Below are positions 51,382 through 58,878 of a stretch of DNA of 64,000 nucleotides, in pieces. The translations under genes and the position numbers were made by a program. Under the pieces are notes generated by a model. The model made no database searches and had not been told where the DNA came from. It saw only the letters and a program-made list of their open reading frames with translations. Origin of the DNA: Phycisphaerales bacterium (GTDB lineage Bacteria; Planctomycetota; Phycisphaerae; Phycisphaerales; UBA1924); assembly GCA_017642965.1 (NCBI GenBank), contig JAEPOJ010000018.1, positions 1-64,000 on the forward strand. The letters are read 5' to 3'. Numbering within the stretch: position 1 is the stretch's first letter; each line of letters opens with the position of its first letter.

Positions 51382-51669
51382 TCAGGGCTTGATGCCGTGG
51401 TGCAGGCGCGAGGGACGATCGAGGAAGAAGATGTGATCGATGTCCTCTGAGATGATCCGGAAGTTCTGATCCTTCATGCGTGCGTGATTGTTGTAGCGGT
51501 CGTCGCTCCGCTGGGCCAGCGTGTGCAGGGCGGGTGTCGGGTCCGAGCGGATCGAATCGATATCACCCGCGTGGCGAGGCCCGGAGGAGCTTGAGCACCC
51601 GATGAGCGCGGCGGGGACAACGAACAGGGCAGCGGCGGTCAGTCTGCGTGCGATGCGATTGGTCTTCAT
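51382..51669 (-). CDS. small lipoprotein
   Basis: A 95-residue protein with a lipoprotein signal ending LIGCSSSSG (Cys at about 25). A short polar tail with NNHARMKDQNFRIISEDIDH follows. The start at 51669 (MKTNRIARRLTAAALF) is chosen for the signal. Function is unknown. Confidence 0.8.
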   Translation of the reverse strand: MKTNRIARRLTAAALFVVPAALIGCSSSSGPRHAGDIDSIRSDPTPALHTLAQRSDDRYNNHARMKDQNFRIISEDIDHIFFLDRPSRLHHGIKP

Positions 51670-52362
51670 GGGTACGGGCCTTTGTTCCAGTGTGTTGCCG
51701 TTGTCGCTCGCTCGCGACGACGGGGTGTGATCAGTGGTCACGAGCATAGCGGAGAAAGACTGTTTTGTCACGCCCCGTATGGATCGTGGATGCGCGGGGC
51801 TGCGTCCGATACGCACCCGAGGCGTTTGGGTTGCGTGCCACAGGGAATCGGGCCTAACTCTTGACTGTTGATGATTTTAAGAGCGAGGCGAGCTGGTGGG
51901 TTTTCCACAATTGGACAATTTGTGCCCATCGGGTCGAATTGAAGGGATCAACTCGCGTGCTCGCGCAGTATGTTGTGACAAGGCGCGGCGTATCGCGGTC
52001 GGTCAGACAAGTTCGATCCCTTTGAGTCTCTGATTGGGAGCCGAGCGATTCTGGGCGAAGACCAGGCCTCCAACGAGTGGAAGGTCGGGATCCGGACCTG
52101 GGCACCCCCCTGTTCATCAGGGTTTCGGACACTGACACCGACTGCGATACGCCGCGTTTTCTCATGCGCTGAATCCATCAGATGTGCTAGACCGTCCGGT
52201 CTGCCAGAGCGGCAGTGGGGGGCGTCGCGTGTGCCAAATCCGGCTGCAGTGACACCATTCAGGGCCTCAGTTCGCTGTTCTCAGGCTGGCGCGCCAGTTG
52301 CACCCTGAGCTTCGGTGATGGTGCACAAGGCGTGCTCATCGCAGCAGTTAGGAGGAACTGAC
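51670..52362. other. gene-free stretch upstream of clpB
   Basis: About 690 bases without a supported gene. A single DnaA-box-like TTTTCCACA occurs at 51901-51909. A dyad TAGACCGTCCGGTCTG lies at 52188-52203. No CIRCE (GAGTGCTAA type) element was seen. An open plus-strand frame around 51980-52312 has no start codon and is probably chance. Confidence 0.45.
52188..52203. promoter_or_regulatory. candidate TetR-type operator
   Basis: The dyad TAGACCGTCCGGTCTG resembles the TAGACCN4GGTCTA operators of NemR-type TetR regulators. It lies about 160 bases upstream of the clpB start. A TetR-family gene occurs at 59590-60252; any link is speculative. Confidence 0.35.
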
Positions 52363-55254: not shown

Positions 55255-56631
55255 ATGGCCGGACCTATCGACATCCCGAAGTCAGATCGTGATCTTCACC
55301 CGACCGCCGCGGACCGCCTGCTTTCACCGTTCCATCGGTTCATGAAGTTCGAAGCCGCGGGCGGCGTGCTGCTCATCCTTTGCGCCTTGGGCGCGATGAT
55401 CTGGGCCAACTCGGGCTGGGCCACAAGCTACAACGAGCTGTTCTATCAGAGCATGGTCACGGTCGGCTTTGGCGACTGGGCGCTGAGCAAGCCATTCATC
55501 CTGTGGATCAACGATCTGCTGATGGCGGTGTTCTTCCTGCTTGTTGGTTTGGAGATCAAGCGGGAGGTGCTGGTGGGCGAGCTGCGGAGCCCGAAGAAGG
55601 CGGCTCTGCCTATCGCGGCGGCGATCGGTGGCATGGCCATCCCCGGGCTGGTCTACGCGCTGGTGAACATGGGGCAGGAATCGATGAACGGCTGGGGCGT
55701 GCCGATGGCGACGGATATCGCGTTCGCGCTGGGCGTGCTCGCGCTGTGCGGGTCTCGCGTGCCGCTCTCGGTGCGTGTGTTCCTTACGTCGCTGGCGATC
55801 GTGGATGACCTGGGGGCGTTGATGGTCATCGCGATTTTCTATACCGAGGAGATCGGTTTGGATTATCTCGGGTACGCGGGCGGGTTGCTGGTGCTGATGG
55901 CGATCCTCAACGCGATCGGTGTGCGGCGTGTGCTGGTGTACATGCTGCTCGGCCTGGTCGTGTGGTACTTCGTGCTCAAGAGCGGCGTGCACGCGACGAT
56001 CGCGGGCGTGATGATCGCGATGACCATCCCCGCCAAGACACGCGTCGATCAGGCGCGGTACAGCGGGTTCGTGCGCTCGATGCTCGACCGGTTTGATGGC
56101 GACTCCAAGGGCAGCGAGCGCGCGTGGACAACCGGAAAACAGCAGTCCGCGGTGCTCGCTATCGAGGACGCGGGTCACAAGGTCGAGACGCCCGTGCGTC
56201 GCCTTGAGCACTCGCTGATCCCGTGGGTCGCGTTCCTGATCCTGCCCGTGTTTGCATTGGCGAACGCGGGTGTTCCGATCAGTGGCGGCGGCGAGGAAGA
56301 AGCAGCCGGTTCTGTCTGGTCGAGCCGGGCGCTGTGGGGCGTGGTGCTGGGGCTGCTCGTGGGCAAGCCGGTTGGCGTGTTCGGCTTCGCCTGGGTCGCC
56401 AACAAGATGGGCATCGGTGTGCTGCCCGAGGGCGCGAGCTGGCGTCACGTGTTCGGTGCGGCGTGGCTGTCGGGCATCGGGTTCACGATGGCGCTGTTTA
56501 TCGCGAACCTCGCGTTCAGGAGCGCGACGGATCTTGACGCGGCCAAGCTGGGCGTGCTCGGCGCGTCGGTGGTTGCGGGCATCGTGGGGTTTGCAATCCT
56601 GATCACCGCGCCCAAGCCGCAGCCGTCCTGA
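55255..56631 (+). CDS. nhaA: Na+/H+ antiporter NhaA
   Basis: A 458-residue antiporter that exports Na+ in exchange for H+ at the inner membrane. Twelve helices are predicted by eye. Family blocks are FFLLVGLEIKREVLVGEL, MATDIAFALGVLALCGSRVP, and FLTSLAIVDDLGALMVIAIF with the paired Asp residues of the ion site. The cytoplasmic loop (about 250-310) is longer than in E. coli. No ribosome-binding site is clear. A terminator follows. Confidence 0.96.
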   Translation: MAGPIDIPKSDRDLHPTAADRLLSPFHRFMKFEAAGGVLLILCALGAMIWANSGWATSYNELFYQSMVTVGFGDWALSKPFILWINDLLMAVFFLLVGLEIKREVLVGELRSPKKAALPIAAAIGGMAIPGLVYALVNMGQESMNGWGVPMATDIAFALGVLALCGSRVPLSVRVFLTSLAIVDDLGALMVIAIFYTEEIGLDYLGYAGGLLVLMAILNAIGVRRVLVYMLLGLVVWYFVLKSGVHATIAGVMIAMTIPAKTRVDQARYSGFVRSMLDRFDGDSKGSERAWTTGKQQSAVLAIEDAGHKVETPVRRLEHSLIPWVAFLILPVFALANAGVPISGGGEEEAAGSVWSSRALWGVVLGLLVGKPVGVFGFAWVANKMGIGVLPEGASWRHVFGAAWLSGIGFTMALFIANLAFRSATDLDAAKLGVLGASVVAGIVGFAILITAPKPQPS

Positions 56632-57384: not shown

Positions 57385-57965
57385 GGGATTCCTCTCGTGC
57401 TTGATGCATTGGTTGATGGGTTGCGCGGGCCTCGTGACACACGAGGCGACGCCCACGCTTCAAAGCGAGAGGAGCGGTATCTGAGGGACACGCTGGTTGG
57501 AATATTTGCACACAAGCTGATCTCAATGTTGCGAGGCAACTGTTTACCTGTTTTGACAGACGCGGTCTCGCGTGGTGGATGCGGGGGCGCAAGTGGTGCT
57601 GCGTGAAGGGATAGTGGCGGGAATTGCACCGAATTCGGGAATTGTCTCCCGGGGGTGCAACCCGGCCCGGAACCGCGGGTGGGGGGGTGCGTATAGGGGC
57701 ACGGATCATGTCAGATCCGATGAACGCGTCGAGCAGATTCCGCTCTTTCCTGAGCATTCGGCGTATTGAAAAGTTGCAAAGCAGGCGATTCGTCCTGAGC
57801 ATCGGATGTGTGTGTGCGATCCGCTGACGATTGGGATGGATCACCATCGCGCTTCGGTCCTGCGTCCCCGGGACCGAGCGCTTCAGAACGTGTGTTGCCC
57901 GTCGCCGGGTGGGTAGGTCTCACGACAGAGCGATTGCTCGTCGTCACTCGCAATAACGGCATAAT
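57385..57965. other. gene-free stretch
   Basis: About 580 bases without a supported frame. Short runs such as CCCGGGGG and GGGTGGGGGGG occur. The downstream end leads into the RNA candidate; a CATAAT near 57960 could be its -10 box. Confidence 0.45.
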
Positions 57966-58196
57966 GCACGGCTGAACCTGGGCGGGTTGACTCGCATGGT
58001 GTGTGATGCGATCGCCCTCAGGAATGCTCTCGGTACCTCGCGTGTGTGTGCGGGTATCCGGCGGGGGAGGCCGAGAGCTGTATTGGGTCGGGTGTGTGTG
58101 CGGGGAGAGAGAAACGCCCCGACCCCGACTCGCCGGGGTGGATGACCGGCGAGTACCAGCCGGGCTGAGCTGTCCCCCTCAGCCCGGCTCTTTTTC
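57966..58196 (+). ncRNA. candidate non-coding RNA with four stems and an intrinsic terminator
   Basis: Four consecutive stems lie on the plus strand: (1) GCTCTCGG 58026-58033 with CCGAGAGC 58071-58078; (2) GGGTCGGG 58085-58092 with CCCGACCC 58118-58125; (3) ACTCGCCGG 58128-58136 with CCGGCGAGT 58146-58154; (4) AGCCGGGCTGAG 58158-58169 with CTCAGCCCGGCT 58178-58189. Stem 4 is followed by CTTTTTC, a Rho-independent terminator for a plus-strand transcript, yet no plus-strand gene lies upstream. The 5' end is only estimated, from a weak -10-like CATAAT near 57960. No match to SRP, RNase P or tmRNA signatures was seen. Confidence 0.6.
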
Positions 58197-58209
58197 TGCG
58201 CCGATCGCG

Positions 58210-58716
58210 TTAGCCCTGATCGTCCTGATACGCGCCTGAGGAATACGTCAGCTCGTAGCTGTGCGAGTAGATCTCGATGAGGTTCCCGAATGGGTCCTCG
58301 CAGTACACCATGCGATAGGGCTTCTCGCCCGGGTAGTACTCACGGATCGGCATACGCTGCTTGCCGCCGTGCTCGACGATCTTCTTTGCGAGCCCTTCGA
58401 CGTCCGGGTCCTGCACACAGAAATGGAAGACGCCCGTCTTCCAGTACTCGAAGTTGTTCTCTCGCCGCTCGGCGTTGCGGAACTCGAAGAGCTCCACGCC
58501 CACACGATCGCCCGTCGCGAGGTGCGCGATCCGGAAGCTGCCCCAGCCCTTACCAAAGACATCGTCGCACATGACGCCGATCGCCGAGTCGTCCGAGACA
58601 ATCTCGGTGGGGGGCATGATGACGTACCAGCCCAGCACGCTGGTGTAGAAATCGACGGCCTTCTCGAGGTCCGTGACGGAGATGCCGATGTGGGAGAACG
58701 TGCGTGGGTAGGTCAT
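58210..58716 (-). CDS. VOC-family (glyoxalase/bleomycin-resistance fold) protein
   Basis: A 168-residue vicinal-oxygen-chelate protein. FSHIGISVTDLEKAVDFYTS, GVFHFCVQDPDVEGLAKKIV and YCEDPFGNLIEIYSHSYE carry the paired beta-alpha-beta modules with metal-binding His and Glu positions. Substrates of the family vary (glyoxalase I, dioxygenases, resistance proteins). AAGGA precedes the start at 58716. Confidence 0.9.
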   Translation of the reverse strand: MTYPRTFSHIGISVTDLEKAVDFYTSVLGWYVIMPPTEIVSDDSAIGVMCDDVFGKGWGSFRIAHLATGDRVGVELFEFRNAERRENNFEYWKTGVFHFCVQDPDVEGLAKKIVEHGGKQRMPIREYYPGEKPYRMVYCEDPFGNLIEIYSHSYELTYSSGAYQDDQG

Positions 58717-58878
58717 GGGAAGTCCTTTCGGGGTGGTTCGCCTGTTCGCGGGCTCAAGAGAGAGAACGCGGCGCACCCGTGATCATTCCACTGTGCGTTG
58801 GGATTGGCAGGATTGGGTGTGGAATCGGGGCCCTCGGCCGGTGGGGCGCGGAGCTATCCTTCTGGCGTGGAAGATGCG

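Follow-up and report, generated by a model that had tools for sequence, protein, structure and literature searches.

A conserved structured RNA of about 495 nt with an ECF-type promoter-like element and its own intrinsic terminator in one genus of Phycisphaerales

The locus and the extent of the RNA

We describe here a structured RNA that we propose is encoded on the plus strand of the window, the whole stretch of 64,000 nucleotides that was analysed, which belongs to contig C9 of a genome assembled in 82 contigs (G000) and holds one full copy of the RNA. The preliminary description had placed at this locus an independent small RNA of about 230 bases, built from four stems of 8, 8, 9 and 12 bp and ending in a T tract, and all of these elements are found where they were claimed to be (P8 to P11, Table 1). 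The open reading frame list agrees with its statement that there is no plus-strand gene upstream to be terminated, as a plausible plus-strand gene just upstream of the RNA is absent from the list and the nearest, an nhaA-like gene, ends at 56631; the neighbouring VOC gene does lie on the minus strand. The proposed size and 5’ end did not stand. Conservation among relatives continues 5’ of 57966, with conserved, covarying hairpins for about another 265 nt upstream to about 57703, preceded by an ECF-like promoter, so that a start at 57966 is too late. We favor an RNA of about 495 nt, and in the 16 genomes measured the length between the T tract and a point just 5’ of the -10 box ranges from 408 to 532.

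Table 1. Positions in the window of the proposed RNA, its predicted hairpins and nearby features
Feature	Position	Strand	Basis and remarks
Lipoprotein-like ORF	51382-51816	-	
Copy of the promoter pattern	51809-51834	-	Before the lipoprotein-like ORF
6S-like RNA	51982-52159	+	5.5 kb upstream, just 5’ of a clpB-like gene
ECF-sigma-like promoter	57668-57695	+	CGGAAC 57668-57673, 16-bp spacer, CGTATA 57690-57695
Proposed RNA gene	57702-58196	+	About 495 nt; 5’ end placed from the promoter and P1
P1, hairpin	57703-57718	+	At the proposed 5’ end; compensatory changes in two of four counted pairs
P2	57724-57764	+	Inner hairpin 57742-57755, one of four pairs compensatory; outer part from folding and by eye
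P3, hairpin	57803-57823	+	GUGUGUGUGCG loop; fold of the window sequence only, stem by eye in relatives
P4, hairpin	57853-57878	+	UGCGUCCCC loop; compensatory changes in 5 of 10 pairs (9 sequences)
P5, hairpin	57898-57916	+	Followed by GGGUGGGUAG (57907-57916); changes one-sided; 91% of cells paired
P6, hairpin	57923-57943	+	C-G to U-A and C-G to A-U replacements (8 sequences)
P7, hairpin	57993-58010	+	Fold of the window sequence; within an insertion of the window’s sub-group
P8, hairpin	58027-58077	+	First of the four stems (8-bp outer stem); GUGUGUGUGCG inside; outer pairs partly supported
P9, hairpin	58085-58125	+	8-bp stem; loop GGGGAGAGA at 58102-58110; compensatory changes in 6 of 11 pairs
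P10, hairpin	58128-58154	+	9-bp stem; GGUGGAUGACC at the tip; compensatory changes in 8 of 11 pairs
P11, intrinsic terminator	58158-58196	+	12-bp stem 58158-58189; loop UGUCCCC; CTTTTTC 58190-58196 directly 3’ of the stem, T tract 58191-58195; compensatory changes in 6 of 11 pairs, 100% of cells paired
Glyoxalase/VOC gene	58210-58776	-	Pfam Glyoxalase, 67.6 bits

P11 is the only plus-strand terminator-like site between 57400 and 58300. Counting both strands there are two such sites in this interval, against a shuffle mean of 0.6 (sd 0.9), and a match to the terminator consensus is therefore weak evidence by itself; it is the comparison with relatives that shows the stretch to exceed chance.

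Covariation and conserved loops

When 61 genomes, the window’s own and 60 of its relatives, were searched at the DNA level, matches appeared in the genus; five loci (L021, L022, L024, L025, and L026) were judged on inspection to be chance and were removed before alignment. A longer stretch was aligned for 14 genus members and also domain by domain, which brought out the additional hairpins upstream. For the 3’ domain (alignment A1, 15 sequences, the window’s own and 14 others) RNAalifold predicts three hairpins with 33 pairs, 20 of which are changed on both sides; 94.9% of the cells are paired as compared with 83.0% in shuffles, and there are 58 double-change cells as compared with 16.4. None of the five measures was reached by any of 500 shuffles, and sliding the partner by one to three columns lowers the pairing to 29–48%. 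The 3’ domain thus bears out the compensatory changes that the preliminary description had suggested looking for in related genomes, and the Rho-independent terminator that it recognized is conserved as P11.

The 5’ domain, aligned in nine sequences, has compensatory changes in 8 of 23 pairs, located in P1, P4 and the inner hairpin of P2, with P5 varying on one side only; none of 500 shuffles reached four of the five measures, whereas 64 of 500 reached the remaining one, further pair types. P3 and P7 stand on the fold and, for P3, on a stem seen by eye, outside the covariation count. The support for P8 is also by eye, because it aligns with slips, and MAFFT shifts the P9 loops of different sub-groups against one another. 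Two further pairings were not believed: RNAalifold pairs the promoter region with P5, in columns that are invariant or almost so and include promoter bases, and a 16-pair outer helix in alignment A3 likewise includes promoter bases.

The structure is not uniform within the genus. The P7 stretch is missing from four genomes (G009, G015, G012, and G005), and in a sub-group, most clearly in G007, G004, G001, and G006, a different short loop replaces the GUCCCC loop of P4. Several strings are constant: GGGUGGGUAG, the longest string common to every genome holding the region, is present in 18 of 18, and in the 3’ domain both GGGGAGAGA in the P9 loop and UGUCCCC in the P11 loop are found in all 19 genomes, with the UGGAUGA of P10 in 18 of 19 (missing in G003).

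The conserved region does not behave as coding sequence. In comparisons with three close relatives (76–86% identity), 55 of 61 gaps have lengths that three does not divide. Thirteen open stretches reach 40 codons or more, and none of them is both stop-free and frame-keeping in all three relatives. One 44-codon stretch on the minus strand is free of stops in all three relatives, with its length shifted by one base in each. That there is no RNA gene here, and that GC-rich intergenic or coding DNA folds by chance, is scarcely credible. GC-rich sequence does fold readily, and the 235-nt stretch alone only modestly beats shuffles (-118.4 kcal/mol, z -2.64, with 2 of 200 shuffles equal or better), although the compensatory changes, the non-triplet gaps, the conserved loop strings and the conserved promoter described below all argue against a chance fold. 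The enlarged 495-nt RNA has a fold z-score of -3.61, with none of 100 shuffles as good. The comparison of sequences strongly supports the existence, in one genus, of a conserved structured RNA gene about 495 nt long.

Neighbouring genes

The next plus-strand gene is rnpA in 15 of the 18 loci with visible downstream sequence, the sequence of G013 ending too early. In the window and in G018 the RNA is separated from rnpA by a VOC gene on the opposite strand, and no VOC gene intervenes in the other 13; G010 and G020 have an aminotransferase-like gene downstream instead, and no rnpA was found downstream in G003. Among the 18 loci only those of the window genome and G018 have the VOC gene at this place, which is suggestive of a recent insertion. 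We also note that in G009 (L028, about 1634–1759) GGGACTAGGGATT-like repeats, which Rfam weakly reads as a microRNA-like hairpin, lie between the terminator and rnpA; these units are probably a simple-repeat expansion.

The prevalence of this order raises the idea that the RNA is a leader or attenuator of an rnpA operon, with the RNA and its terminator setting how far transcription continues into rnpA. The 13 loci in which rnpA follows without an intervening VOC gene are in keeping with this, but the RNA is retained in five loci that depart from the simple order (the window and G018 with the VOC gene, G010 and G020 with the aminotransferase-like gene, and G003), and because the downstream gene varies the RNA is not simply an rnpA leader; we consider the attenuator model quite unlikely. 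The covarying hairpins, the conserved terminator, the lack of a conserved frame and the varying downstream gene are together those of an independent, intrinsically terminated RNA gene, and it is the independence of the RNA, as opposed to its size, that holds from the earlier proposal.

Distribution

Of the 21 genus members, 19 give a single match each to a covariance model (R1), and the two without a match are 56% and 61% complete. With stricter filters and 22 scored candidates per genome, R1 matches none of 142 genomes from elsewhere in the family, and with filters off the best E-value at 28 rnpA loci of other genera is 0.43. A motif pattern searched in 397 genomes of the class matched six, four from the genus and two judged from their letters to be chance. 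A longer three-motif pattern, applied to 84,980 species genomes, returned 18 stretches, of which R1 confirms 17 (L090 is unconfirmed); the titles of these 17 name Phycisphaerales or Phycisphaeraceae in 14 cases, Planctomycetota in one, and only a bacterium in two. A pattern search of viral contigs gave no matches. The searches relied on exact patterns and, in the R1 scan of the genus and family, on 22 scored candidates per genome under stricter filters, and may have overlooked diverged relatives in other genera; so far as tested, the RNA appears to be confined to one genus of Phycisphaerales.

Relationship to known RNA families

At the gathering score, Rfam has no matches in the whole window. 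The preliminary description had looked for signatures of RNase P RNA, tmRNA and SRP RNA and set these families aside, rightly, as each is located elsewhere in the genome (RF00010, 214.3 bits; RF00023, 162.3 bits; and RF00169, 57.4 bits, respectively). 6S RNA (RF00013) has no match at 57600–58300. A 6S-like RNA is nonetheless present upstream (Table 1; 44.2 bits, E 1.2e-7), and was missed by the standard scan because its score is slightly under the gathering score of 46.4. Among relatives, 4 of 13 genomes have 6S matches at E-values up to 1, two of them over the cut-off, and in G014, G012, G006, and G007 the 6S match lies 3.5–6.7 kb upstream of the new RNA.

Permissive scans list SorX, Scr3202, sR-tMet, and CrfA in the window, and MOSES4, Rhizobiales-2, ctRNA_pGA1, and others in relatives, all under their gathering scores. 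Within the short stretch of L033 the lowest E-value belongs to ctRNA_pGA1 (7.3e-5; 31.2 bits, with a gathering score of 45). SorX (RF02784) is the best of these in the window at 23.6 bits over P10 and the terminator, although its gathering score is 46.6 and the match covers the last two hairpins only. We read such matches as the similarity of GC-rich hairpins with a terminator, and keep Rhizobiales-2 (RF01723) as the sole lead because it shares the UGUCCCC loop. In two relatives scanned as short stretches it scores 34.6 bits (L033) and 31.7 bits (L028), short of its gathering score of 40, and aligns in the 3’ domain as hairpins ending in a terminator-like hairpin with that loop; however, the interior of the middle hairpin is unaligned and the model has 103 positions as compared with about 495 nt here. 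Rhizobiales-2 is not listed for the window, nor among the 19 loci under stricter filters.

OLE, GOLLD, and ROOL are large bacterial noncoding RNAs with unknown or ribonucleoprotein roles, and the new RNA resembles them in being large, multi-hairpin, conserved and not coding, but differs in lacking an Rfam gathering match and in being found in one genus in the searches made. The parts of the literature covered by our search, including parts of PMC8103513, PMC6767563, and PMC2864571, hold no description of this RNA.

Promoter and possible regulon

The element upstream of P1 is conserved as NGNAAC and CGTAT boxes, with a spacer of 16 bp in 15 genomes and 17 bp in three, and CGTAT in 17 of 18 (CGAAAA in G010). 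The AAC of the -35 box and CGT of the -10 box are given as hallmarks of ECF promoters in a review (PMC8103513), and of the 18 genomes holding the region all have the AAC and the spacing and 17 have the CGT. Spacers of 16 and 17 bp were used for Streptomyces sigma-E promoters in PMC6767563. Our counting script sought the NGNAAC–CGTAT form, but these bases are also conspicuous in the unconstrained alignment. No match to a sigma-70-type promoter was found in 57400–58300. P1 starts seven bases 3’ of the -10 box and should therefore open the transcript, and an ECF-type promoter likely drives the RNA.

The pattern GNAACC-N14-GCGTAT occurs at 51 sites in the 21 genomes of the genus as compared with 16 for a reversed control. 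Fourteen of these are at this RNA, and the remaining 37 against 16 are only about two- to three-fold over the control. In four genomes (G000, G018, G002, and G014) the pattern is 24–29 bases before the start codon of a 456–467-residue protein with an export-like start, whose G000 copy has a weak transglutaminase-core match below cut-off (21.9 bits against 23), and in three (G000, G018, and G002) it precedes a gene for a small protein without a Pfam match, whose start is lipobox-like by eye. We note that a copy in the window faces away from the 6S-like RNA and stands before a lipoprotein-like ORF (Table 1), an arrangement that is the same in G018 and G002. Most of the remaining sites occur once each and could be fortuitous.

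Mode of action

Several models of its action were considered. In the one that we place highest, at about even chances, an independent RNA gene of about 495 nt, limited in our searches to one genus, is transcribed from its ECF-type promoter to its own terminator and acts in trans as an output of an ECF regulon. When an ECF sigma factor is free the RNA would be transcribed on the plus strand, ending at P11, and would constitute the noncoding output of an envelope- or stress-type regulon. It would act by presenting its invariant loops, of which the terminator loop UGUCCCC would be the likeliest seed, pairing with ribosome-binding sites of the GGGGA type. The P9 loop GGGGAGAGA could pair with UGUCCCC over 5 bp and keep the terminator loop closed, although this mutual pairing is beyond proof by covariation because both loops are invariant. 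GGGGA is found within 60 bases 5’ of the start in three of the four copies of the exported-protein gene and in none of the three copies of the lipoprotein-like gene, so that we can only suggest that the UCCCC loop pairs with these mRNAs.

RybB and MicA are ECF-sigma-dependent small RNAs, and the proposed ECF-type promoter and own terminator of the new RNA are reminiscent of them. The new RNA differs in size, with nine or more hairpins in about 495 nt, in that its dependence on a sigma factor is putative, and in its setting, as Hfq was found in none of the 21 genus members as compared with 5 of 14 control genomes. A more elaborate version of the model, which we think unlikely as a whole, would make it the founding member of a new half-kilobase RNA class, controlled by an ECF sigma factor, with a kissing switch between P9 (GGGGA) and the terminator (UCCCC), repeated UGUGUG loops carrying a protein, and a place as the noncoding output of an envelope-stress regulon in Phycisphaerales with no recognisable Hfq.

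A second set of models proposes that the RNA binds proteins rather than pairing with mRNAs, the repeated UGUGUG and other conserved loops forming a scaffold or sponge within a ribonucleoprotein. Runs of at least three UG number 45 in 18 genomes as compared with 8.6 expected from shuffles, and the large size and many hairpins suit a scaffold, but four genomes (G004, G017, G010, and G019) are near expectation, and we consider this a serious though clearly less probable reading than a trans-acting RNA. Our search for protein partners covered CsrA and Hfq. RNAs of the CsrB/RsmZ type bind CsrA, and here too there is a chain of hairpins ending in a terminator, with CsrA encoded in all 21 genomes of the genus (two copies in 19), GGAUG at the P10 tip, and an excess of GGAUG in some genomes (G015 and G012, reached by none of 200 shuffles). 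However, GGA itself is over-represented at the 5% level in none of 18 genomes (9 in G000 as compared with 11.7 expected), and by eye the P9 and P10 tips lack an A(N)GGA context, which makes a CsrA sponge very improbable.

The RNA thus probably regulates in trans or, failing that, binds protein, and our best reading of these comparisons is of a new genus-limited regulatory RNA that is probably under the control of an ECF sigma factor. To our knowledge, regulatory RNAs of this bacterial group have been little described. Being large, single-copy and well preserved, with invariant loops and a promoter that can be recognized, the RNA offers a handle on RNA regulation in these bacteria, and makes it directly testable whether their ECF stress responses include an RNA arm.
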